This document shows positions 3,197 to 52,866 of a stretch of 64,000 nt of DNA, piece by piece. Below the pieces are notes generated by a model. The model saw only the letters and a program-made list of their open reading frames with translations. It had not been told where the DNA came from and made no database searches. A program made the position numbers and the translations under genes. The DNA comes from a virus. Position 1 is the stretch's first letter, and each line of letters opens with the position of its first letter. The stretch lies in IMG/VR virus record IMGVR_UViG_3300046543_000595, positions 1 through 64,000 of that record; one strand, given 5' to 3'.

Positions 3197-3274
3197 AGCG
3201 GTTGAGTTTGCCCCCGGGCTACCGACCGGGCTGCCGCATTAACGGGAGGACCGCCCTCCCGCCGGTCTGCGTGG
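3197..3274 (-). repeat. two-hairpin leader element, copy B
   Basis: ACGCAGA, hairpin 1 (CGGGAGG/CCTCCCG), TAATGCGG, hairpin 2 (CCCGG, loop TCGGTAGC, CCGGG), then ACTCAACCGC. The stems differ in sequence from the other copies but keep pairing. Loop 2 is the most divergent. Confidence 0.75.
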
Positions 3275-3695: not shown

Positions 3696-3774
3696 AGCGG
3701 TTTGATTTTGGCATCGGGTTTCGGACCGACCGCCGACCGCATTAGCGGGCATCGCTGCCCGCCCGTCTGCGTTT
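3696..3774 (-). repeat. two-hairpin leader element, copy C
   Basis: ACGCAGA, hairpin 1 (GCGGGCA/TGCCCGC), TAATGCGG, hairpin 2 (GGC..TCGG, loop TCCGAAAC, CCGA.GCC), then AAATCAAACCGC and AGGAG. The upstream gene's TAA stop merges with the ACGCAGA box. Confidence 0.8.
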
Positions 3775-5847: not shown

Positions 5848-5919
5848 AGCGGTATGATTGGACTCGGCTTTGGACGAGTCTGCCGCATTACGGGGCATCG
5901 CTGCCCCGCCATCTGCGTT
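5848..5919 (-). repeat. two-hairpin leader element, copy F
   Basis: ACGCAGA, hairpin 1 (CGGGGCA/TGCCCCG), TAATGCGG, hairpin 2 (GACTCG, loop TCCAAAGC, CGAGTC), then AATCATACCGC and GGGAG. This is the cleanest example of both stems. Confidence 0.8.
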
Positions 5920-7897: not shown

Positions 7898-7974
7898 AGC
7901 GGTTGAATTTGGCGCAGGTTGTGGACTGCCGCCGACCGCATTAACGCACCCCATCGGGTGCGCCCATCTGCGTC
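7898..7974 (-). repeat. two-hairpin leader element, copy G
   Basis: ACGCAGA, hairpin 1 (CGCACCC/GGGTGCG with loop GATG), TAATGCGG, hairpin 2 (GGCG.CAG, loop TCCACAAC, CTG.CGCC), then AAATTCAACCGC and GGGAG. Confidence 0.8.
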
Positions 7975-19581: not shown

Positions 19582-19677
19582 ACTTTTCCTTTCAACAGCG
19601 CACCGGCTAAGCGCTCGAGTGTTTAAAGCCGGTTGAATTTGCAGACGCCATGAACTATAACGTGTACGGAGGTTGAA

Positions 19678-20335
19678 ATGATAGTTGAAATCCGAGCCGC
19701 CGAGGGCGGCGATGACGCCAAATTACTCGTCCTGGATCAGTGCCGCATCTACGCGAAACGATGTCTCAGGAACGGTCTTTGACTTTGCGATCGTCGATCA
19801 ACGGCCAGGTATTATCGTTACGATTATTCGTGGCGCGAAAGAACACATCTTCCAATCTGAATCCGGTGGCCATCGCTGGCAGCGGATCCCACCGACCGAA
19901 AAGCGCGGCCGCGTTCAAACCAGCACCATCACGGTAGCCGTCTTACCCGAACCCACTGCCGTCGAAGATCCATTGAAATTACACGATCTGGACTGGATGA
20001 CTTGTCGCTCTGGCGGTAAGGGCGGCCAGAACGTGAACAAAGTCGAATCGGCGGTGCAGATCCGTCATCGTCCCACCGGTCTGATTGTGCGGTGTGAATC
20101 GGAACGCTCGCAGCTGCTGAACAAACAGTCGGCGCTGGAGATCATGCGGGCAAAGCTCTGGGATGCGGCACGTACGCAGCAGAGTAACGCGATAGCCAGT
20201 GATCGTAAACAGCAGGTCGGCGCCGGCATGCGTGGCGACAAGCGACGGACGATCCGGGTGAGGGATGGGGCGGTCGTCGACCACGTGACGGGACAGCGCT
20301 GGAAATTCGATGACTACATTGCGGGACGATGGTAA
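19678..20335 (+). CDS. RF1-type peptide chain release factor, expressed by +1 frameshift
   Basis: Joined product 218 residues (19678-19779 plus 19781-20335). The frame-0 part starts MIVEIRAAEGGDDAK, the conserved release-factor domain-2 motif, behind a strong GGAGG. It stops at CTT TGA C (19777-19783), the exact RF2 frameshift signal. An AGG (19768-19770) stands 6 bases before CTT, as in E. coli prfB. The +1 frame continues with SESGGHRWQRIPPTE (PxT motif PPT, residues 71-73, RF1-like) and SGGKGGQNVNKVES (GGQ at 115-117), which catalyses peptide release on the ribosome. The N-terminal domain 1 is absent. The neighbouring tRNA array fits a translation role. A simple mutation or sequencing error is the alternative. 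Confidence 0.85.
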
Positions 20336-20508: not shown

Positions 20509-20580
20509 CGGGATGTAGGAAAGTGGGTATCCACTCCGTTTGGGGCGGAGGAATCGCCAGTTCGAATCTGGTCATCCCGA
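20509..20580 (+). tRNA. tRNA-Pro (TGG)
   Basis: Acceptor CGGGATG/CATCCCG, anticodon arm CTCCG-TTTGGGG-CGGAG, T loop TTCGAAT. Discriminator A, no encoded CCA. Confidence 0.9.
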
Positions 20581-20589
20581 CTTGTTTAT

Positions 20590-20660
20590 GGGCCGGTAGC
20601 TCAACGGGAGAGCGTCTCACTTGCAATGAGAAAGATGGGGTTCGATTCCCCCCGTGTCCA
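20590..20660 (+). tRNA. tRNA-Ala (TGC), poor acceptor stem
   Basis: D arm GCTC/GAGC, anticodon arm TCTCA-CTTGCAA-TGAGA, T loop TTCGATT. Acceptor GGGCCGG/CGTGTCC keeps the G3-U70 alanine identity pair but has mismatches at 5-68 and 6-67. It may be decaying or edited. Confidence 0.7.
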
Positions 20661-20664
20661 CTTT

Positions 20665-20753
20665 ACGGACGTGGCCGAGTGGTTGAAGGCTCCGGATTCC
20701 AGACCCGGATGACCGTAATGGTCGCATCGTTGGTTCGAATCCAACCGTCCGTG
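20665..20753 (+). tRNA. tRNA-Trp (CCA) with class II long variable arm
   Basis: Acceptor ACGGACG/CGTCCGT (A1-U72), discriminator G73, anticodon loop TTCCAGA reading CCA. All are bacterial Trp identity features. Yet the variable region is a long hairpin (GACC-GTAAT-GGTC), as in Ser/Leu/Tyr tRNAs, and the D arm (GCCGAGTGG..GAAGGC) is Ser/Leu-like. A31-C39 is mismatched. It could instead be a Ser-type tRNA with an altered anticodon. Confidence 0.75.
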
Positions 20754-20760
20754 CTTCAGA

Positions 20761-20860
20761 TTGGCGGTCCCTGTGCAACCAAGCACGAGGCGCTCCTCTG
20801 GTCGAGGGTGGGGCTGGGTTTCGAATCTCCGGCCCGGCGCTGTTGGGACGGGGCCGCCAA
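20761..20860 (+). ncRNA. tRNA-like structured element 1
   Basis: Terminal 7-bp stem TTGGCGG/CCGCCAA encloses 86 bases with internal hairpins (CCTC/GAGG; GGGCTGG/CCGGCCC with a TTCGAAT-containing loop). No normal cloverleaf. It lies between canonical tRNAs. Confidence 0.45.
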
Positions 20861-20867
20861 TGTCTTT

Positions 20868-20941
20868 CGGGATGTAGGAAAGCCTGGAAATCCGTCTGCC
20901 TCGGGCGCAGAAGATCGCCGGTTCAAATCCGGCCATCCCGA
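20868..20941 (+). tRNA. tRNA-Pro (CGG)
   Basis: Acceptor CGGGATG/CATCCCG identical to tRNA-Pro(TGG). Anticodon arm TCTGC-CTCGGGC-GCAGA; T loop TTCAAAT. Discriminator A. Confidence 0.9.
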
Positions 20942-20945
20942 CTTT

Positions 20946-21020
20946 GCCCGCGTAGCTCAGCCTGGATAGAGCGACGAGCTTCTAACTCGAGGGCCGCAGG
21001 TCCGAATCCTGCCGCGGGTA
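20946..21020 (+). tRNA. tRNA-Arg (TCT)
   Basis: Acceptor GCCCGCG/CGCGGGT, D arm GCTC/GAGC, anticodon loop CTTCTAA, T arm GCAGG/CCTGC. Discriminator A. The acceptor and T arm match tRNA-Arg(ACG). Confidence 0.9.
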
Positions 21021-21035
21021 CTATATACTGGCCGC

Positions 21036-21191
21036 ATGTGGCTAATCATCGAAACCGATTCCACGGTCGAGATCGTCCCCGACTTCGGTCGGCAGCATGT
21101 GCTGGTCGGAGATAACGATGGACCGTGCTGGTGCGTGCCTCGAATCGAAGAGAACGATCGCGATCTCGTCATCCACGAAGCGGACAACTGA
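21036..21191 (+). CDS. 51-residue hypothetical protein inside the tRNA array
   Basis: Starts MWLIIETDST. A beta-rich small protein with DNDGPCWCVPRIEEN. No clear SD; a TATACT-like sequence lies upstream. Its stop is directly followed by promoter 2. It may be a real gene in the array; function unknown. Confidence 0.55.
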   Translation: MWLIIETDSTVEIVPDFGRQHVLVGDNDGPCWCVPRIEENDRDLVIHEADN

Positions 21192-21192
21192 C

Positions 21193-21221
21193 TTGACAAC
21201 CGATCGGCAGTGTGCATAATC
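21193..21221 (+). promoter_or_regulatory. tRNA-array promoter 2
   Basis: -35 TTGACA (21193-21198), 17-base spacer, -10 ATAATC (21216-21221), extended by GTGC. It matches promoter 1 at -35, -10 and the G after it. Confidence 0.75.
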
Positions 21222-21227
21222 GGATCT

Positions 21228-21471
21228 GAACTTGATAGGGTTTGCGAATCGTCCAGTTTCACTCATTACCTCTCTGGGAACGGCAGTCGAGCAATCGCTG
21301 CCGACCCGGCACTTATAAAATGCGATTTATAAAACAACACGAACACATCCAGACACGCGGTAGGAATACCGTCGGAATGGATACGTTCGTGCCGGAGGTC
21401 ACCGGGTAAAGAACCAAAACCCGAATGACCGACCGGCCGGAGACACAAGGTTCTCCGGCCTTTCTGTTTTC
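21228..21471 (+). ncRNA. promoter-to-terminator leader 2
   Basis: About 240 nt from promoter 2 to a strong terminator just before tRNA-Met. It contains inverted repeats TTATAAA/TTTATAA and CGGTA/TACCG and only tiny ORFs. It repeats the promoter-leader-terminator-tRNA layout seen at 20336. Confidence 0.45.
21435..21471 (+). terminator. intrinsic terminator before tRNA-Met
   Basis: GGCCGGAG and CTCCGGCC stem followed by TTTCTGTTTTCT, ending one base before the tRNA. Confidence 0.8.
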
Positions 21472-21543
21472 TGCCCCGTGGCGCAGTGGTAGCGCGGCGC
21501 TCTCATAAGGCGACGGTCGGGAGTCCGAATCTCCCCGGGGCGA
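21472..21543 (+). tRNA. tRNA-Met (CAT)
   Basis: Acceptor TGCCCCG/CGGGGCG with a weak T1-G72 end pair, D arm GCGC/GCGC, anticodon loop CTCATAA, T arm GGGAG/CTCCC. The weak 1-72 pair recalls initiator tRNAs but the three G-C pairs of the anticodon stem are absent. Ile2 is also possible. Confidence 0.8.
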
Positions 21544-21545
21544 TG

Positions 21546-21608
21546 GGATGGTGGGACAATAGGAAAATGCCTTGTTTCCCGAGGAAAATGCCTAACGTGC
21601 AGCCATCC
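21546..21608 (+). ncRNA. tRNA-like structured element 2
   Basis: Terminal stem GGATGGT/GCCATCC around 49 bases that contain the 12-base direct repeat AGGAAAATGCCT twice. No D, anticodon or T arm is recognisable. It fits exactly between two tRNAs. Confidence 0.4.
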
Positions 21609-21616
21609 TAGCTTTT

Positions 21617-21689
21617 GCCGCGGTAGCACAGTTGGTAGTGCAGCTGACCCGTAATCAGCAGGTCGTGAGTCCGAATCTCACCCGTGGCT
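21617..21689 (+). tRNA. tRNA-Thr (CGT)
   Basis: Acceptor GCCGCGG/CCGTGGC, anticodon arm GCTGA-CCCGTAA-TCAGC, T arm GTGAG/CTCAC with loop TCCGAAT. Discriminator T. Confidence 0.9.
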
Positions 21690-21690
21690 T

Positions 21691-21764
21691 AGGTCTGTCG
21701 TTAAGCGGGGCGGTAACGTTCCGGGTTGACCGGCTCGCACACACTTCCGTAAAGCGATAGACCT
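21691..21764 (+). ncRNA. tRNA-like structured element 3
   Basis: 74 bases, tRNA length. Acceptor-like AGGTCTG/TAGACCT; D-like arm GTTA/TAAC with GG in the loop; middle hairpin CCGG-GTTGA-CCGG; TCGC/GCGA stem with a long loop. The anticodon and T loop are not canonical. A degenerate tRNA or a tRNA mimic. Confidence 0.45.
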
Positions 21765-21767
21765 TTC

Positions 21768-21839
21768 GCCGCAGTAGCCGAGGGGTAAGGCGCCGAGTTG
21801 GTATCTCGGAGATCGTGGGATCATTCCCCACCTGTGGCT
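21768..21839 (+). tRNA. tRNA-Thr (GGT)
   Basis: Acceptor GCCGCAG/CTGTGGC, anticodon arm CCGAG-TTGGTAT-CTCGG, T stem GTGGG/CCCAC with unusual T loop ATCATTC. Discriminator T. Confidence 0.85.
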
Positions 21840-21841
21840 TT

Positions 21842-21902
21842 GGCCCGGCACCATGTACTGATGGAGCGCCCGTTCCGGGTAGTCATCGGAGACGGCTGGG
21901 CC
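21842..21902 (+). ncRNA. tRNA-like structured element 4
   Basis: Terminal stem GGCCCGG/CTGGGCC around hairpins CCAT-GTACTG-ATGG and CCC-GTTCC-GGG. At 61 bases it is shorter than a tRNA, with no anticodon arm I can assign. Confidence 0.4.
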
Positions 21903-21905
21903 TTC

Positions 21906-21978
21906 GCTCGCGTAGCACAATTGGCGGTGCGCCACCCTTGTAGCGTGGAGGTTGCCGGATCGTTGCCGGCCGCGAGCT
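21906..21978 (+). tRNA. tRNA-Thr (TGT)
   Basis: Acceptor GCTCGCG/CGCGAGC, anticodon loop CTTGTAG with a C31-C39 mismatch, T stem GCCGG/CCGGC with loop ATCGTTG. Discriminator T as in the other two Thr tRNAs. Confidence 0.85.
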
Positions 21979-21985
21979 TTTGTTT

Positions 21986-22059
21986 GGGCGGTTAGTTCAG
22001 CCTGGAAGAACGCGGAGCTTACATCTCCGATGCCGCGGGTTCAAATCCTGCACCGCCTA
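21986..22059 (+). tRNA. tRNA-Val (TAC)
   Basis: Acceptor GGGCGGT/ACCGCCT, anticodon arm CGGAG-CTTACAT-CTCCG, T arm GCGGG/CCTGC. Discriminator A. Confidence 0.9.
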
Positions 22060-22061
22060 TC

Positions 22062-22135
22062 GCTGTCGTAGCTCAACTGGCAGAAGCATCCGGCTCTTAA
22101 CCGGAAGGTTGTGGGATCGTTGCCCACCGACAGCA
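22062..22135 (+). tRNA. tRNA-Lys (CTT)
   Basis: Acceptor GCTGTCG/CGACAGC, anticodon arm TCCGG-CTCTTAA-CCGGA, T stem GTGGG/CCCAC with loop ATCGTTG. Discriminator A. Confidence 0.9.
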
Positions 22136-22208
22136 TGGGGCATAGCTCAACTGGCAGAGCGCTGGATTCTGAATCCAGAGGTTTAAGGTTCGAAGCCTTA
22201 TGCCCTAG
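22136..22208 (+). tRNA. tRNA-Gln (CTG)
   Basis: Acceptor TGGGGCA/TGCCCTA (U1-A72), discriminator G73, anticodon arm CTGGA-TTCTGAA-TCCAG. U1-A72 and G73 are Gln identity features. Confidence 0.9.
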
Positions 22209-22212
22209 TCGT

Positions 22213-22288
22213 AGCTCGGTAGCACAACTGGCGGTGCGCGCGCCTTTGGAGCGCGAGGCTGCAGGTTCGAAGCCTGCCCGGGCTGCCA
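22213..22288 (+). tRNA. tRNA-Gln (TTG), encoded CCA
   Basis: Acceptor AGCTCGG/CCGGGCT, discriminator G, followed by encoded CCA. Anticodon arm CGCGC-CTTTGGA-GCGCG; T arm GCAGG/CCTGC. One of only two tRNAs here with genomic CCA. Confidence 0.85.
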
Positions 22289-22290
22289 TT

Positions 22291-22364
22291 CGGCTCGTAG
22301 TTCAGCGGACTAGAACATCGGTCTCCGAAACCGAAAGTCAGGAGTTCGAATCTCCTCGAGTCGA
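22291..22364 (+). tRNA. tRNA-Arg (CCG)
   Basis: Acceptor CGGCTCG/CGAGTCG, anticodon arm T-CGGT-CTCCGAA-ACCG-A, T arm AGGAG/CTCCT. Discriminator A. Confidence 0.9.
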
Positions 22365-22369
22365 CTTGT

Positions 22370-22448
22370 TGACAGGTGGCAGACATTTGGTAATGCGCGC
22401 GGCTGTTAACCGCGGTCGATTTGGGTTCGAAACCCAACCTGTCAGCCA
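22370..22448 (+). tRNA. tRNA-Asn (GTT), encoded CCA
   Basis: Acceptor TGACAGG/CCTGTCA, discriminator G plus encoded CCA, anticodon arm CGCGG-CTGTTAA-CCGCG, T arm TTGGG/CCCAA. The TTGACA at its start is part of the acceptor, not a promoter. Confidence 0.9.
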
Positions 22449-22452
22449 AAAT

Positions 22453-22525
22453 GCCCGCGTGGTCTAATGGAAGGGCCCTTGACTACGAATCAAGTGACAT
22501 GCAGGTCCGAGTCCTGCCGCGGGTA
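22453..22525 (+). tRNA. tRNA-Arg (ACG)
   Basis: Acceptor GCCCGCG/CGCGGGT, anticodon arm CTTGA-CTACGAA-TCAAG, T arm GCAGG/CCTGC. Shares acceptor and T arm with tRNA-Arg(TCT), so a duplicate with a changed anticodon arm is possible. Confidence 0.9.
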
Positions 22526-22529
22526 CTCT

Positions 22530-22600
22530 GCCTCGGTCGGTTAGTGGTAAACCATCTGGCTTCCAACCAGAAACTGCGGGTCCGATTCCCGCTCGGGGCA
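22530..22600 (+). tRNA. tRNA-Gly (TCC)
   Basis: Acceptor GCCTCGG/TCGGGGC, anticodon arm TCTGG-CTTCCAA-CCAGA, T arm GCGGG/CCCGC. Discriminator A. Confidence 0.9.
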
Positions 22601-22602
22601 TT

Positions 22603-22687
22603 GGGCGCGAAGGAGCTAAAGCAGGGTATAGGTTTGACTCGACCCACGATGAGTGATGAATCGGGTACCTGCCAGGCGTCGCGTCCA
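22603..22687 (+). ncRNA. tRNA-like structured element 5
   Basis: 8-bp terminal stem GGGCGCGA/TCGCGTCC around a long internal helix (GCAGG-TA/TACCTGC with one bulge) and inner hairpin GGT/ACC. No cloverleaf. It lies between the two tRNA-Gly genes. Confidence 0.45.
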
Positions 22688-22691
22688 CTTT

Positions 22692-22763
22692 GTGGTCGTC
22701 GTCCAATTGGCAGGATGGGACGTTGCCAACGTCCAGACGCCGGATCATTCCCGGTCGACCACT
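22692..22763 (+). tRNA. tRNA-Gly (GCC)
   Basis: Acceptor GTGGTCG/CGACCAC, anticodon arm GGACG-TTGCCAA-CGTCC, T stem CCGG/CCGG with loop ATCATTC-like. Discriminator T, typical of Gly. Confidence 0.9.
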
Positions 22764-22766
22764 CTT

Positions 22767-22840
22767 GGGACCGGCGCATAACGGCTGGTGCGCTCCGCTG
22801 TCTACGGATGCTTTAGGGGGTTCAACTCCCCTCGGTCCCG
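22767..22840 (+). tRNA. tRNA-Asp (GTC)
   Basis: Acceptor GGGACCG/CGGTCCC, anticodon loop CTGTCTA with TCCG/CGGA stem, T loop TTCAACT. Discriminator G as expected for Asp. Confidence 0.9.
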
Positions 22841-22843
22841 TCT

Positions 22844-22914
22844 GGCCCCGTCTTCCAAGGGTAGGAACGCGGATTTTCACTCCGCGAATTGGAGCTCGAC
22901 TCTCCACGGGGCTA
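22844..22914 (+). tRNA. tRNA-Glu (TTC)
   Basis: Acceptor GGCCCCG/CGGGGCT, anticodon arm GCGGA-TTTTCAC-TCCGC, T loop CTCGACT. Discriminator A. Confidence 0.85.
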
Positions 22915-22917
22915 TCT

Positions 22918-22989
22918 GTCGCGTTCGGCTAGAGGCTAGGCCGTCGCCCTCTCGAGACGAAGACGCCGGTTCGACTCCGGCACGCGACG
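22918..22989 (+). tRNA. tRNA-Glu (CTC)
   Basis: Acceptor GTCGCGT/ACGCGAC, D region TCGGCTAGAGGCTAGG as in tRNA-Glu, anticodon loop CTCTCGA with one C-A mismatch in the stem, T arm GCCGG/CCGGC. Discriminator G. Confidence 0.85.
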
Positions 22990-22991
22990 TC

Positions 22992-23066
22992 GCTCGAGTA
23001 ACTCAGTGGTTTCAGAGATCGCGTCTGATAAGCGCGAGGTCGGGAGTTCGATTCTCCCCTCGAGCA
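22992..23066 (+). tRNA. tRNA-Ile (GAT)
   Basis: Acceptor GCTCGAG/CTCGAGC, anticodon arm CGCGT-CTGATAA-GCGCG, T arm GGGAG/CTCCC. Discriminator A. Confidence 0.9.
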
Positions 23067-23070
23067 CTTT

Positions 23071-23143
23071 GCCGCGGTAGCTCAGACGGTAGAGCGCGGC
23101 CCTGAAAAGGCCGGCGTCGGGAGTCCGACTCTCCCCCGTGGCA
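23071..23143 (+). tRNA. tRNA-Phe (GAA)
   Basis: Acceptor GCCGCGG/CCGTGGC, anticodon arm CGGCC-CTGAAAA-GGCCG, T arm GGGAG/CTCCC. Discriminator A. Confidence 0.9.
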
Positions 23144-23178
23144 CTATGGAAACACATAAACGTCTGGTGATTCACTTC

Positions 23179-23252
23179 GCCAGCCTAACTCAAACGGATA
23201 GAGTATCGGTCTTTTAAACCGAAGGTTGTGGGATCATACCCCACGGCTGGCA
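23179..23252 (+). tRNA. tRNA-Lys (TTT)
   Basis: Acceptor GCCAGCC/GGCTGGC, anticodon arm TCGGT-CTTTTAA-ACCGA, T stem GTGGG/CCCAC with loop ATCATAC. Discriminator A. Confidence 0.9.
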
Positions 23253-23255
23253 TAC

Positions 23256-23326
23256 GCCGAGTTCGTCCAGCGGAAGGACGTCTGATTGTGGATCAGAAGA
23301 CTGGGGTTCGAGCCCCCAACTCGGTA
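23256..23326 (+). tRNA. tRNA-His (GTG)
   Basis: Acceptor GCCGAGT/ACTCGGT, anticodon arm TCTGA-TTGTGGA-TCAGA, T arm TGGGG/CCCCA. The first G may serve as the extra G-1 required by HisRS. Confidence 0.85.
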
Positions 23327-23328
23327 TC

Positions 23329-23403
23329 GGACCTGTAGCTCAGATGGACAGAGCGCTTGTTTCCTAAACAAGGCTGCCGCGAGTTCGAATCTCGCCAGGT
23401 CCA
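23329..23403 (+). tRNA. tRNA-Arg (CCT)
   Basis: Acceptor GGACCTG/CAGGTCC, anticodon arm CTTGT-TTCCTAA-ACAAG, T arm GCGAG/CTCGC. Discriminator A. Fourth Arg tRNA. Confidence 0.9.
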
Positions 23404-23404
23404 C

Positions 23405-23434
23405 TTGACAGAACCAAACCCGATCGTCTAGGAT
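23405..23434 (+). promoter_or_regulatory. tRNA-array promoter 3
   Basis: -35 TTGACA (23405-23410), 18-base spacer, -10 TAGGAT (23429-23434). Upstream of the last tRNA group. The 120-base leader after it holds only a weak 32-codon ORF. Confidence 0.65.
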
Positions 23435-23442
23435 GACCCATC

Positions 23443-23541
23443 ATGAAAGTGCAAATCTTTCGCCACGTGATCGCTGCTTTAGCCAGTTCTTCCCGCTTGC
23501 GCCTCTCCTCGTTACGACTCAGTTATTGTTCATCTCTGTAA
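23443..23541 (+). CDS. questionable 32-residue ORF in the leader of the last tRNA group
   Basis: Starts MKVQIFRHVI, Ser/Leu/Arg-rich, without a Shine-Dalgarno. It lies just after promoter 3 and could be a leader peptide or chance. Confidence 0.25.
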   Translation: MKVQIFRHVIAALASSSRLRLSSLRLSYCSSL

Positions 23542-23556
23542 ACCAAAACTAAACTC

Positions 23557-23630
23557 GCCCCTGTACGCAAACTGGCAAAGCGATCCCGCTCAAAACGGGC
23601 TGTTTGTGGGTCCGACTCCCACCGGGGGTA
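23557..23630 (+). tRNA. tRNA with anticodon CAA (Leu) but short variable loop
   Basis: Acceptor GCCCCTG/CGGGGGT, anticodon arm CCCG-CTCAAAA-CGGG, T arm GTGGG/CCCAC. CAA reads UUG (Leu), yet the variable region is class I sized. Bacterial tRNA-Leu normally has a long variable arm. Confidence 0.75.
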
Positions 23631-23632
23631 TT

Positions 23633-23717
23633 GGCGATGTAGACGTGTACGGCGCACGGGCGCTCTGTAAAAGCGTTTTGGGCAACTGACCACTGAGTTC
23701 GATTCTCAGCATCGCCA
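23633..23717 (+). tRNA. tRNA-Tyr (GTA)
   Basis: Acceptor GGCGATG/CATCGCC, anticodon arm GCGCT-CTGTAAA-AGCGT, long variable region as normal for bacterial Tyr, T arm CTGAG/CTCAG. Discriminator A. Confidence 0.9.
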
Positions 23718-23720
23718 CTT

Positions 23721-23811
23721 GGAAGCGTGGTCGAGCGGTTTATGACACCGGCCCCGAAACCCGGCGGGTAGTTGAAAGGCTATCTCGTGAGTTCGAATCT
23801 CACCGCTTCCT
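23721..23811 (+). tRNA. tRNA-Ser (CGA) with C33
   Basis: Acceptor GGAAGCG/CGCTTCC, long variable arm GGTAG/CTATC, anticodon loop CCCGAAA in which the near-universal U33 is C. C31-C39 is mismatched and the discriminator is T rather than G. A decoding defect or special role is possible. Confidence 0.75.
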
Positions 23812-23814
23812 CTT

Positions 23815-23895
23815 GGCCCCTTGGTGAAACGGCATACACGCCGGTCTTAGGAACCGGTTCCTTCGGGAGTGAGAGTTCAAGTCTCTCAGGGGCTA
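23815..23895 (+). tRNA. tRNA-Leu (TAG)
   Basis: Acceptor GGCCCCT/AGGGGCT, anticodon arm CCGGT-CTTAGGA-ACCGG, long variable arm TTCC-TTCG-GGAG, T arm GAGAG/CTCTC. Discriminator A; a regular class II Leu tRNA. Confidence 0.9.
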
Positions 23896-23898
23896 TTC

Positions 23899-23971
23899 GG
23901 ACGTCTGCCGGAATGGTTAACGGGCTGGGCTGCAAACCCAGTTTTTAGGAGTTCGATCCTCCTGGCGTCCT
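23899..23971 (+). tRNA. tRNA-Cys (GCA)
   Basis: Acceptor GGACGTC/GGCGTCC, anticodon arm CTGGG-CTGCAAA-CCCAG, T arm AGGAG/CTCCT. Discriminator T, the Cys identity base. Confidence 0.9.
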
Positions 23972-23974
23972 CTT

Positions 23975-24061
23975 GGAGAGATGGCCGAGTCTGGCTGAAG
24001 GCACCGGTTTGCTAAACCGGCAGGCAGTGATGTCTCGCGGGTTCAAATCCCGCTCTCTCCG
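23975..24061 (+). tRNA. tRNA-Ser (GCT)
   Basis: Acceptor GGAGAGA/TCTCTCC, anticodon arm CCGGT-TTGCTAA-ACCGG, long variable arm, T arm GCGGG/CCCGC. Discriminator G. Last gene of the array; convergent with the leftward genes. Confidence 0.9.
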
Positions 24062-24062
24062 C

Positions 24063-25571: not shown

Positions 25572-26114
25572 TTAACCTACCAGACCGGTCAATTTTTTCA
25601 GCGCCACGTACTTGCCGGGCAGTCCGCAGCTTTTCAAGAGCAGCGCATTATACGCGCCATAGGCGATCAGAACGGACGGACCGCCGGCATTATGGATGGG
25701 CCGTTGTCCGTCAGGACGGATAAACGCCAGTCGGCCTTTAAAGAAAAATAGAGCATGAGCGATCGGGAAAACGTACGTCTGAAACCAGACGGTGTCGCTC
25801 CGTAGATAGACCAGCGCTATGCCGTTCCCGTGCTCGGAAAGCCGGCGCATCCATTCAGAGGTGTGTTTACCATAGGGTGGATTCAGCCAGACGCGGCCAA
25901 ACCACTGTCGTAGAAAACCCTGATCGGTGATCGTCCACATCGTTCTGGCGGTCCGATGGATCTGATGGAGCGAGGCACTGGGATCCAGGTCAAACCGACC
26001 AAGCGGTTCAATGATCTCCGGGGGTGTCTGCCAGTCGTCCGTCCAGTCGGAATTACGTGGTGCTGGCCCGCGCTGCCGGTAGTTGGTGGCGATACTTGTC
26101 ATTTCAATCGGCAT
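25572..26114 (-). CDS. dam: phage Dam-type DNA N6-adenine methyltransferase
   Basis: 180 residues (ATG 26102 is an alternative start). The pattern DWQTPPEIIEPLGRFDLDPS, then WLNPPYGKH with the NPPY catalytic motif, then FKGRLAFI and GGPSVLIAYG matches the phage DNA_N-6-adenine methylase family. It would methylate adenine in phage DNA, protecting it from restriction. It overlaps the DUF1643 gene. Confidence 0.85.
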   Translation of the reverse strand: MPIEMTSIATNYRQRGPAPRNSDWTDDWQTPPEIIEPLGRFDLDPSASLHQIHRTARTMWTITDQGFLRQWFGRVWLNPPYGKHTSEWMRRLSEHGNGIALVYLRSDTVWFQTYVFPIAHALFFFKGRLAFIRPDGQRPIHNAGGPSVLIAYGAYNALLLKSCGLPGKYVALKKLTGLVG

Positions 26115-26622
26115 ACGCAAACGGCACGGGCCGCAGTAGGGAACTGAGATATAGGGGATGGCTGGGGTGGCCAGACTTCGTGACCTGCAACGCGTGCAGA
26201 TCAGGAATCTCTTTCGCGATGTCTCGCCCGCGGTAGATATGCCGCCAGCCACGCTCGGTGATGTGCGCGCCCCAGCAGGCGATAACGAACGTGCCGTCGC
26301 ACATATCGTGCAGGAACTCGAGCGTATTCTCCGGGCCGACCGGATCCTCGGCGCGGAAGAGCGCCTTGTAGTCGGTCGATCGGAGCGCGAAGCAGTTCAG
26401 CATTTGGAAGCTCCCGCACTCGAAACTGCGGGCAAACGCTTTGCACCGCTTGAGTGTCGCATCGTCTTTGAGGTGATCAGCGGTGGAAGGGTTGAGGCCA
26501 ATGGCGGTAAGCGTGGGTTGGCTTGGGTTCCAGCAAATCGTCAGGCTGTACCGGTACTTCAGATCCTCGGAGAAGGCGGCTTCCCGCCGCTCTCCGTCCA
26601 CCTCTGCTTCTTTGTAGATCAC
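26104..26622 (-). CDS. DUF1643 family protein
   Basis: 172 residues from GTG 26622, which lies just downstream of a promoter; an ATG at 26688 would fall upstream of it. The pattern RYSLTICWNPSQPTLTAIGLNPSTAD, ending VTKSGHPSHPLYL, is the DUF1643 signature. The family is common in phages and bacteria, biochemical role unknown. First gene of the leftward operon. Confidence 0.75.
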   Translation of the reverse strand: MIYKEAEVDGERREAAFSEDLKYRYSLTICWNPSQPTLTAIGLNPSTADHLKDDATLKRCKAFARSFECGSFQMLNCFALRSTDYKALFRAEDPVGPENTLEFLHDMCDGTFVIACWGAHITERGWRHIYRGRDIAKEIPDLHALQVTKSGHPSHPLYLSSLLRPVPFAYAD

Positions 26623-26644
26623 TGCCGACCTCGCATGACGCGCT

Positions 26645-26673
26645 ACATTACGCGCCCGATTTAAAAAATTCAA
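26645..26673 (-). promoter_or_regulatory. leftward promoter
   Basis: Minus strand -35 TTGAAT (26668-26673), 17-base spacer beginning with a T/A-rich run, -10 TAATGT (26645-26650). It stands back to back with the rightward genes from 26701. Confidence 0.65.
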
Positions 26674-26700
26674 TAGCAAAAACGGCAAAGTTCATCGATA

Positions 26701-33345: not shown

Positions 33346-33702
33346 ATGGCGGTTACCTACGATTTCGTTTGCGACGACGATGACTGCGGGCACGTTGTCG
33401 TGGACGTGCTCTGTTCGGACGGTCGCCCGGTCGGAGATCACCCGAAGCACTGTGGTCGCCCGATGCAGATGAGCTACAAGAACCTCGTGCAATCGGTTCA
33501 GGAGTTCGTCCCGTTCACGACCCGCAACATCCACCCGGACGGGAAAGAGTTGCTCGTGCGCAATAAGGGCGACCTTCAACGGTACTACAAGGAATACGGG
33601 GTCGTTCACTACGACGACCCGAACCTTGTCGCGCAGGGCGGCGAGATCGTCCGGAAGACGCCAAAGATGGGCAAGGTCTTCGACATGGGACATCGGCGAT
33701 GA
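33346..33702 (+). CDS. FmdB-like zinc-ribbon protein
   Basis: 118 residues starting MAVTYDFVCD, GAGGAG upstream. CDDDDCG then HCGRPM match the short zinc-ribbon (FmdB-like) pattern found in phage head-module proteins. The tail is basic. ATGA overlap with gmd. Confidence 0.65.
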   Translation: MAVTYDFVCDDDDCGHVVVDVLCSDGRPVGDHPKHCGRPMQMSYKNLVQSVQEFVPFTTRNIHPDGKELLVRNKGDLQRYYKEYGVVHYDDPNLVAQGGEIVRKTPKMGKVFDMGHRR

Positions 33703-34694
33703 GAACCGCACTCATTACCGGTGTGACCGGTCAGGACGGCTCCTATCTGAGCGAACGGCTATTGGAGCAGGGGTACCACGTCGGAGGCCTCGTCGTCGGT
33801 ATCGAGGACCGATCGAACATCCGGCACCTCGAGTCGCATCCGAACTTCGATCTGATCGAAGGCGAGTTAATGGATCAGGCTTTCCTGAGTGAGACGCTCA
33901 GGACGATCCGCCCGGCTCGCCTGTTCAACCTTGCTGGACAGTCGTTCGTGCCGCTCTCATGGAAGCAGCCGGTGTTCACTGCAGACTTCAACGGTCTCTC
34001 GGTCGCCAGGCTGCTCGAGGCGATTCGTCTGGAATCGCCAGATACGCACTTCTATCAGGCGTCCTCGAGCGAGATGTTCGGGAACTCGGACGACGTGATG
34101 ATCAGTGAGGATACGATCCTCGCGCCGTGCTCGCCCTACGCGGCCGCCAAAGCGTTCGGCCATCACATCACACAGGTCTACCGGGAGAGCTACGGACTGT
34201 TCGCCTGCTCAGGAATCCTGTTCAATCACGAGAGTCCGCGCCGCGGCGAAGAGTTCGTCACGCAGAAGATTGCCCGATCGGTCGCCAGGATCGCTAGAGG
34301 TGACCGGGAGCACCGGCTGCAGTTGGGCGATCCGGAATCGCGCCGGGATTGGGGATATGCCGGGGATTATGTTCGGGCGATGATCATGATGCTGGATGCG
34401 GACGAGGCGGATGATTACGTGATCGCGACCGGCTGGAATCATTCGGTTCGCGACTTCTGCAGGATGGCTTTTGAGTATGCCGGCATTGCGAGTTGGGAAC
34501 AGTATGTCGAATTCAACTGCCACGGCCTCCAGCGCCCTAAAGACGTGCGGTCTCTCTGTGGAAACGCGACGAAGGCCCGCGTGGCCCTCGGATGGGTCCC
34601 GCTGATGACGTTCAAGATGCTCGTTGAGGTCATGGTCGATGCTGCCATCCGCCGTCTTGCCAACGAGGAATTACCGGAAGCGAGGTTGGTATGA
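33699..34694 (+). CDS. gmd: GDP-mannose 4,6-dehydratase
   Basis: 331 residues. NAD-binding TGVTGQDGSYL (7-17), then catalytic Tyr147-x3-Lys151 (PYAAAKAFGHH), NHESPRRGEEFVT and QLGDPESRRDWGYAGDYVRA are hallmarks of Gmd. It converts GDP-mannose to GDP-4-dehydro-6-deoxy-mannose, the precursor of GDP-fucose, rhamnose and perosamine. It sits between packaging genes with ATGA overlaps on both sides. The aminotransferase at 51817 could use its product. Confidence 0.95.
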   Translation: MRTALITGVTGQDGSYLSERLLEQGYHVGGLVVGIEDRSNIRHLESHPNFDLIEGELMDQAFLSETLRTIRPARLFNLAGQSFVPLSWKQPVFTADFNGLSVARLLEAIRLESPDTHFYQASSSEMFGNSDDVMISEDTILAPCSPYAAAKAFGHHITQVYRESYGLFACSGILFNHESPRRGEEFVTQKIARSVARIARGDREHRLQLGDPESRRDWGYAGDYVRAMIMMLDADEADDYVIATGWNHSVRDFCRMAFEYAGIASWEQYVEFNCHGLQRPKDVRSLCGNATKARVALGWVPLMTFKMLVEVMVDAAIRRLANEELPEARLV

Positions 34695-50792: not shown

Positions 50793-51820
50793 TGACCACT
50801 GGAATCATTTCGTATCTATCGCAGCGCGGCCTCGGCACGATGTGCCACGACCTGCGGGAACATCTCGGAATCACTCGGCAGTTGGTCATCCCCGACATCG
50901 GGTGGCCGATGCACCTCGAGTGGGCCAACGGCGAGGAGTTCTACCTGCACCAGTGGGAGGTTCAGAAAGATGATCTCTCCGCCTGGCAATCGACCGACGG
51001 CATCGATACCGTGATCTCGATCGAGACCGGCTTCGGGGATCACACGTTCCGCTACGCGAAAGAACTCGGGATGCGCACGATCCTGATCGTGATGTGGGAG
51101 TCGTTCAACCCGCACCTGCCGGCCTATCAGAGCGTCGACCTCTACATCTGCCCGAGCTTCAAGGCGTATCAGGAGGTTCCGTTCGACAACAAGGTCTTCC
51201 TGCCGTATCCGGTCGACACCAATCTGTTCAAGTTTCGGCAACGGTCCGGGCCGGCGCGCCAATTCATTCACAACGCCGGGTCTGGAGGCATGAACGGACG
51301 TAAGGGCACGCGTGAGACTGTCGAGGCCTTTCTGAAGGCCGATCCTGGAACATGGGACGCGACATTGCGGATTAATTCGCAGGTCGATCAGCCGTGGTTT
51401 GGCGAGATCCGTTCGCCGTACGTTACGTTCAACATCGGCGGGTTCATGAACCGCGAGGATCTCTATACTCAAGGCGACGTGCTGATCTACCCGTCGAAGT
51501 ACGACGGCCACGCGCTCGTGACGCTCGAGGCGATGGCTTCCGGGATGCCCGTCCTGACGACCGACGCCGAGCCGATGAACGAATACTGGCCGGCGGGACA
51601 CAAAATGCTGACCGGGGTCAGAAAGCAGGAGCCGGCCGGCATGATCAACCCTCACTGTCTGGCCAGCCACGTCGATACATACCATCTGGCCGAGCAGATC
51701 CGCTGGGCCGGAGGGACCGATATGGAGCGCTACTCGACGGAAAATCGCCAGATTGCGGAAGTCCGGCATTCCTGGTCCGCCCTCCGGGACCGGTGGATGT
51801 ACAGATTGGAGAAGCGATGA
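50792..51820 (+). CDS. GT4-type glycosyltransferase
   Basis: 342 residues. GT-B fold: N-terminal GLGTMCHDLREHLG; linker FLPYPVDTNLFKFR; C-terminal GDVLIYPSKYDGHALVTLEA with the E-x7-E-like nucleotide-sugar site (LEAMASGMPVLTTDAEP). Directly coupled to the aminotransferase. Confidence 0.85.
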   Translation: MTTGIISYLSQRGLGTMCHDLREHLGITRQLVIPDIGWPMHLEWANGEEFYLHQWEVQKDDLSAWQSTDGIDTVISIETGFGDHTFRYAKELGMRTILIVMWESFNPHLPAYQSVDLYICPSFKAYQEVPFDNKVFLPYPVDTNLFKFRQRSGPARQFIHNAGSGGMNGRKGTRETVEAFLKADPGTWDATLRINSQVDQPWFGEIRSPYVTFNIGGFMNREDLYTQGDVLIYPSKYDGHALVTLEAMASGMPVLTTDAEPMNEYWPAGHKMLTGVRKQEPAGMINPHCLASHVDTYHLAEQIRWAGGTDMERYSTENRQIAEVRHSWSALRDRWMYRLEKR

Positions 51821-52866
51821 AGACGCGAATACCGATCGCCAGCCCGGACCTCCGGCTCGAGGAAATGGATAATCTGCGGATTGCAATGGCGGACAGTTGG
51901 ATCTCGCAGGGACAGTTCGTGGAGCGGGCGCAGGTGTTGCTCTGTAAAATAACCGGTCGCCGGTACGCGCTCTGCTGTTCGTCCGGCACGACGGCCCTCG
52001 TTGTCGCGCTGATGGCGACAAGCGGCGGTGGCCCGGTCCGCACCATTGCGACTCCTGCGCTAACGTTCGCAGCCGTCCATAATGCTGTCCGGCTGGCGGG
52101 TGCGAGACTGCAATGCCTCGATGCTGACATGCTGACGTGGCAGCCGCTCAACCACGATTATCGTGGCGTGACATGGGACACCGTTATATCTGCGCCATGC
52201 TACGGATCCGTTCACCTGCCGGAGTCGCTACCGCACGCGACGAGGACGTTCATCGAGGACGCCAGTGAGTCGTTCGGTGGCCATGTTGGCGACGTCTGGG
52301 CAGGCGGCGACAAACGGGCGCGGATCTCGACCTTATCCTTCTACGCAAACAAGATCGTGACGGCAGGCGAGGGCGGCGCGATCCTGACCGACGACGAGGA
52401 GTTGTACAAGGAATGCCGGCTGATCATCAACCATGGGATCGCCGACAAGAGTTACGTGCCGCTCCGGACTGGGATCAACGGGCGGATGACCGACCTGCAG
52501 GCGGCGGTGCTCTGCGCGCAACTCTCCCGGTTTAGCGAGATGCTGGCCCGCCGGTACGAGATCATGCAGTATTACGAGGCTGCAAGCCGTGTGGAGGAGT
52601 GGAACCTGCCTGGCATCGCCAGTGACGAGATGCCAGCGCCTTGGGTATTTGCGGGTGTCGTTAAGGGTGGCGTTCCAGCACGGCAGCGGATCATTCAGGA
52701 CTGCGAGCAGGAGAATATCGAGTGGCGTCCGTTTTTCCCGATCCCGCCGGAGGGCGAGCACTGCGGGAGCGCCAGATTCTTGAGCGGCATGGGCCTCTGC
52801 CTGCCGCTCTCGAGCGCGATGACGGACGCGGAAGTCGAGCGAGTTGCGGAGGTGATCCGTGGATAA
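51817..52866 (+). CDS. DegT/DnrJ/EryC1/StrS aminotransferase, perosamine-synthase-like
   Basis: 349 residues, PLP enzyme. SSGTTAL (56-61) binds phosphate, DASESFGG (149-156) the cofactor ring, and Lys179 in STLSFYANKIVTAGEGG forms the Schiff base. NHGI and GINGRMTDLQAAV are standard. With Gmd it could convert GDP-4-dehydro-6-deoxy-mannose to GDP-perosamine. ATGA overlap with the glycosyltransferase gene. Confidence 0.85.
   Translation: MKTRIPIASPDLRLEEMDNLRIAMADSWISQGQFVERAQVLLCKITGRRYALCCSSGTTALVVALMATSGGGPVRTIATPALTFAAVHNAVRLAGARLQCLDADMLTWQPLNHDYRGVTWDTVISAPCYGSVHLPESLPHATRTFIEDASESFGGHVGDVWAGGDKRARISTLSFYANKIVTAGEGGAILTDDEELYKECRLIINHGIADKSYVPLRTGINGRMTDLQAAVLCAQLSRFSEMLARRYEIMQYYEAASRVEEWNLPGIASDEMPAPWVFAGVVKGGVPARQRIIQDCEQENIEWRPFFPIPPEGEHCGSARFLSGMGLCLPLSSAMTDAEVERVAEVIRG

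Follow-up and report, generated by a model that had tools for sequence, protein, structure and literature searches.

Short RF1-type release factors of phages and bacteria appear to be gated by recoded stop codons

UGA is read by release factor RF2, UAG by RF1 and UAA by both class-I factors. The autoregulatory +1 frameshift of prfB, the RF2 gene, combines a CTT-T slip, a Shine-Dalgarno (SD)-like element in a set register, a C after the stop and a class-I factor as product (PMC12421855), and each of these recurs in the gene described here. Prince et al. (2025) found UAG in none of the prfB motifs and no conserved shift elements in prfA (PMC12421855), and according to a 2016 review no RF2 gene was known to use in-frame UGA readthrough and no RF1 gene its UAG counterpart (PMC5009743). 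The nearest precedent is the eRF1 gene of Mimivirus and Megavirus (R726/mg280), which likewise encodes a viral release factor behind UGA readthrough and a +1 shift, at CUU UAG C or CUU UAA C (PMC3521657).

Two further groups share features with the gene. PrfH (RFH, of RtcB2-PrfH) also lacks domain 1, keeps GGQ and is sporadically distributed (PMC1586002, PMC9223846), and domain 1 has been reported to be dispensable for codon recognition or release (PMC1586002). Release factors RF1 and RF2 are listed among the translation genes of huge phages, and that paper, as searched, reports no gating of them (PMC7162821). Searches of an open-access library yielded no published RF1-type gene gated by a recoded stop.

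The window, i.e. the whole 64-kb stretch that was analysed, belongs to a 107,420-base virus record. On its + strand a gene at 19678-20335 spans two overlapping frames that, when joined, encode a 218-residue product, here called mini-RF1. Its features are as follows.

19668..19672, + strand: Shine-Dalgarno GGAGG of the mini-RF1 gene, read from the sequence, with ATG 19678 lying 5 nt downstream
19678..19782, + strand: zero-frame ORF with 34 codons of RF domain 2 (MIVEIRAAEGG...RNGL), by homology to RF1 domain 2, with stop TGA at 19780-19782
19768..19773, + strand: internal SD-like element AGGAAC at -9 to -4 of the shift codon, in the register of prfB AGGGGG
19777..19783, + strand: shift site CTT TGA C, CTT being present in 80/80 genes at the homologous site
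19781..20335, + strand: +1-frame remainder of mini-RF1, 184 codons plus TAA (20333-20335), by RF1 homology and purifying selection in relatives
19889..19897, + strand: codon-recognition tripeptide PPT (PxT, RF1 type), residues 71-73, read from the sequence
20021..20029, + strand: GGQ catalytic motif, residues 115-117, read from the sequence

The slip codon CTT (19777-19779) is followed by the gate codon TGA (19780-19782) and then by C, and the +1 frame resumes with GAC at 19781. AGGA (19768-19771) occupies -9 to -6 relative to CTT, compared with -9 to -4 for AGGGGG of prfB. The features of a prfB-type frameshift are present, namely the CTT-T slip before the stop, an SD-like element ending 3 nt upstream and C after the stop. 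Upstream of ATG 19678 the frame is interrupted by stops 9 and 18 codons away, and domain 1 is therefore not encoded. Over 17,040 bases the sequence is 100% identical to a second IMG/VR record, which may not be an independent sample.

Searches of the joined protein against NCBIfam matched RF1 (PRK00591) with E=1.8e-60, RF2 with 5.4e-36 and PrfH with 6.6e-21, and the protein also matches Pfam PCRF and RF-1. Alignments to solved RF1 cover residues 2-203 or 3-216, the shift junction included. The score of 204.9 bits misses the curated RF1 equivalog cut-off of 400, and 74.8 bits misses the PrfH cut-off of 166.65. The hallmarks of RF2, the SPF tripeptide and membership of the RF2 clade, are absent from the window gene, which has PPT and falls outside that clade. 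The preliminary description had proposed that the product is of RF1 type (PxT) and lacks domain 1, and the PPT tripeptide, the best profile match to RF1 and the upstream in-frame stops bear this out. Its proposal that an RF2-type +1 site has been relocated to domain 2 likewise agrees with CTT TGA C and the internal SD in prfB register, and motif placement, which it had named as a check against RF2, came out as RF1-type with a separate RF2 clade. Given the PPT tripeptide, the window product probably does not read UGA. Across the family GGQ is found in all 177 members, PPT in 137 of the 177 and a PxT-like loop in most. Near helix alpha-5 there are family-wide departures from cellular RF1 (GGDEA to GGxDA), and recognition loops vary (PPN, SPT, SPL, deletions); at loci L024, L050/L052, L056, L070 and L077 about four recognition-loop residues are lost, with gate and GGQ kept.

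Relatives from IMG/VR and phages at roughly 40-60% identity show the same frame break. The family set was drawn from IMG/VR and phage relatives, Myxococcota, Proteobacteria and plasmid loci and two further viral profile scans, and clustering of the classifier output at 97% gave 193 distinct mini-RF1 genes. An early stop interrupts 188 of these (97%), a figure that comes from gated seeds and uneven sampling, with search patterns made of short peptides outside the gates so that open genes were not disfavoured. The gate described at the window gene exists, and the scope must be widened to a far larger family in which 188/193 are gated. A +1 shift at residue 34 accounts for 85 of the 193, the window gene included, and in every case follows CTT and stands before a stop, TGA in 68, TAG in 15 and TAA in 2. 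An in-frame TGA is found at residue 33 in 74 genes, at 35 in two, at 41/49 (or nearby) in 12 and at 43-45 in eight, and one gene has an in-frame TAG at 45. The remaining gates are +1 shifts at CTT TGA near residue 44 in four genes (Novimethylophilus, Achromobacter and two others) and at CTT TAG near residue 50 in two, and five genes are open.

Isolates with a gate are Minicystis rosea (DSM 24000), Nannocystis exedens (DSM 71), Achromobacter anxifer, Jiella, Gemmobacter caeni and Rhodovibrio sodomensis. Among the huge phages, LR745208 (L024) has a CTT TGA shift and the mini-RF1 gene of LR745206 (L025) contains two in-frame UGA codons. In the annotation of one plasmid copy the gene is split between a 'hypothetical protein' and a truncated 'release factor-like protein', and gated mini-RF1 genes are prone to being overlooked in this way. 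The copy of Nannocystis pusilla Na p29 (L135, 5001-5690) has an extra frame change beside the gate relative to its sister species, possibly a sequencing error or a decaying copy.

Statistics of the residue-34 site were taken over 80 genes (90% clusters), with p values that are nominal as the sequences are related. The slip codon is CTT in 80 of 80, and CTT makes up 11.8% of Leu codons elsewhere in the same genes; an Arg codon at -6 to -4 is AGG in 46 of 49 cases, compared with 8.7% elsewhere. Matches to AGGAGG at -9 to -4 total 325, while 2000 synonymous-codon draws averaged 202 and never exceeded 232, and the match peaks at offset -9, the prfB register. The SD match in that register exceeds what the amino acids require. 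C directly follows the gate stop in 58/80, and UAA serves as gate in 2/80 compared with 46/80 as the final stop of the same genes. This pattern holds among proteins that are about 50% identical.

In a tree built without the gate columns, a branch with an SH-aLRT of 100 sets off the mini-RF1 family, in a set that includes PrfH, next to cellular RF1, and the RF2 sequences group in their own clade with support of 100. PrfH is placed inside the mini-RF clade on a branch of length 5.7, a position that we distrust and attribute to long-branch attraction. Two viral genes without a gate branch off first within the family and another adjoins it, the root within the family not being firm; the basal open genes are consistent with an ungated ancestor. 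Gate position or mechanism requires 13 changes on the tree, and stop identity at the residue-34 site also requires 13, the TAG genes being dispersed. A change from TGA to TAG needs two steps, via TAA or a sense codon, and the rarity of TAA therefore suggests that selection has favoured stops recognised by one factor only. In-frame TGA-33 aligns with the slip codon in a single column, that of the conserved Trp of cellular RF1.

The context of the gene in the window, outside the gate, contains two further groups of features.

20509..24062, + strand: 31 tRNA genes, directly downstream of mini-RF1
2929-2984, 3214-3271, 3714-3771, 5863-5917 and 7914-7972, - strand: Twister-P5 ribozymes (Rfam)

The five ribozymes score above the Rfam gathering score and lie within a 5-kb span of the phage genome, among small minus-strand ORFs. 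The window also encodes a DUF1643 protein (26107-26688, - strand), a GDP-mannose dehydratase (33699-34691) and a DegT aminotransferase (51394-52863), which suggests surface-sugar synthesis by the phage. At least three tRNAs lie within 4 kb of the gene in 60 of 177 representatives and a tmRNA in 7 of 177, and on a Variovorax plasmid and at a Gemmobacter locus the mini-RF1 gene also sits among tRNAs. Phage tmRNA genes, some permuted, adjoin mini-RF1 in L047 (9209-9567), L271 (4669-5020), L293 (4651-5114), L308 (2298-2620) and L352 (4651-5164). Predicted tRNA-Pyl-like genes with the amber anticodon CTA occur in L329 (8031-8105), L340 (7842-7917) and L352 (8130-8206), and in these three loci the tRNA-Pyl-like gene, a tmRNA and a UGA-33 mini-RF1 all fall within a few kilobases.

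Full-length RF1 and RF2 are present in each of the eight bacterial carriers checked, and mini-RF1 is therefore an extra factor. Its distribution in bacteria is sporadic, with one carrier among 141 Myxococcota genomes and one among 150 of the Jiella order, both sets including the seed genome. By-eye inspection of the host gene neighbourhoods of isolates revealed no constant partner, and no RtcB partner of mini-RF1 was seen among the neighbourhoods surveyed, a subset of the loci. Minicystis and Nannocystis have a separate PrfH, with RtcB.

The reading we favour, at a probability of roughly 0.6, is that mini-RF1 would serve as a backup release factor, its synthesis held back until termination slows at a stop that only one class-I factor reads. 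Ribosomes that initiate at 19678 would pause at UGA after 34 codons, and there active RF2 would terminate translation and free a useless 34-residue peptide. When termination at UGA is slow, pairing of the internal SD with the anti-SD would pull the P-site tRNA-Leu from CUU to UUU, and the ribosome, now in the +1 frame, would make the 218-residue factor. In the other branches, +1 shifts at different residues or near-cognate readthrough of an in-frame UGA may have the same outcome. The sequences themselves show the split frame and its conserved gate, RF1 homology, the standard code, purifying selection and the genomic context, and we infer that slippage and readthrough occur and depend on release-factor level, and that the product would release peptides at UAA and UAG and play a role in infection. 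Each gate would act as a sensor of one class-I factor, in most cases RF2 via UGA and in a minority RF1 via UAG, with UAA, readable by both, avoided. At the window gene it is reasonable to regard the UGA gate as responding to RF2 and not to mini-RF1 itself, and UAG gates would report the status of RF1, that of the host and possibly their own. The backup terminator would be produced if termination in the host were overloaded or disabled, and phage copies often travel with tRNA arrays that may supply much of the remaining decoding set. The sensing of host RF2 proposed in the preliminary description survives as the majority case (a UGA gate in 68/85) and not as a rule, because 15/85 gates are UAG and 2/85 are UAA; the other branches also differ. 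Such cross-sensing, in which a UGA gate reports RF2 and a UAG gate RF1, would leave a UAA/UAG-only product without direct feedback from a UGA gate and unable to replace RF2 at UGA, the stop at which many ORFs of the window phage end. It also counts against the backup-terminator reading that only about a third of loci have the three or more nearby tRNAs, that gate identity does not follow the recognition loop, and that members that have lost the loop are still gated, which suits a less codon-specific rescue role.

Direct autoregulation, in which the mini-RF reads its own gate codon, UGA included, despite its PxT motif and so closes a loop like that of prfB, we consider doubtful. The 15/85 UAG gates at the main site would be such closed loops for an RF1-type factor, and the changes at helix alpha-5 together with the variable loops leave room for altered specificity, but the gate is UGA in the large majority. 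Gate identity does not track the PxT recognition loop among the 177 members, PPT being commonest in UGA- and UAG-gated genes alike. A recruited ribosome-rescue factor with a PrfH-like role, its gate sensing stalled or damaged ribosomes generally and its product freeing them, is decidedly unlikely: the absence of domain 1 as in PrfH, the sporadic spread, the tmRNA adjacent in several loci and the loop losses would fit it, but most members are RF1-like in their recognition loop and decoding residues, and Minicystis and Nannocystis already possess PrfH with RtcB.

The in-frame-TGA loci use the standard code, as code-11 ORFs there often end in TGA and the Trp codon is TGG. TGA recoding in the AT-rich huge phages with in-frame TGAs at 41/49 was rejected, as 50 kb of LR745206 has 166 TGG compared with 23 TGA, and the sparse ORF coverage of some UGA-33 loci reflects tRNA and tmRNA arrays instead of recoding. 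A dedicated UGA-suppressor tRNA as general partner was likewise rejected, a TCA anticodon being predicted in only 2/177 loci. Downstream of the gate the median dN/dS is 0.18 for the shift type and 0.10 for the UGA-33 type, upstream of it pN/pS is 0.16 and 0.19 in relatives, and the codons on either side of the gate are under purifying selection. Any lone gene with a frame break invites doubt, and an ATG or GTG lies at most 25 codons past the shift in the new frame in 51/85 shift loci, but sequencing error (which the preliminary description had rightly set aside), a pseudogene, a recoded genome or two proteins made by internal re-initiation is scarcely credible given a break at the identical residue in 85 distinct genes from isolates and metagenomes, the invariant CTT, the SD register, the standard code and the two-sided purifying selection.

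Stop-codon gating has so far been seen as a trait of RF2, plus one group of giant-virus eRF1 genes. The RF1-lineage family broadens it to UGA and UAG gates and to readthrough besides frameshifting, makes it testable why gating evolves (the factor sensed, the avoidance of UAA), points to a backup termination system tied to phage tRNA arrays and offers natural UGA-readthrough and +1-shift cassettes. It looks like a widespread, undescribed mechanism by which a spare release factor is produced only while ordinary termination is failing. The full proposal, that this undescribed phage and bacterial family repeatedly evolved recoded-stop gates at several sites (+1 at UGA, UAG or UAA, or UGA readthrough), and that these sense the activity of one factor and induce a backup terminator when host termination fails, e.g. 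in phage-host conflict, stands for us at even odds.

Compared with prfB, mini-RF1 is of the RF1 lineage and lacks domain 1, and its shift lies inside domain 2 at the position of a conserved RF1 Trp. One gate in five is UAG or UAA, whereas prfB motifs include no UAG among 8,164 (PMC12421855), and the product of mini-RF1 genes probably does not read UGA. Unlike PrfH, it has a PxT loop and a stop gate, and it coexists with a separate PrfH in Minicystis and Nannocystis. The Mimivirus and Megavirus genes encode a eukaryotic-type eRF1 in viruses of amoebae behind two gates in series (PMC3521657), whereas mini-RF1 is a bacterial RF1-type factor of phages and bacteria with several alternative gates.
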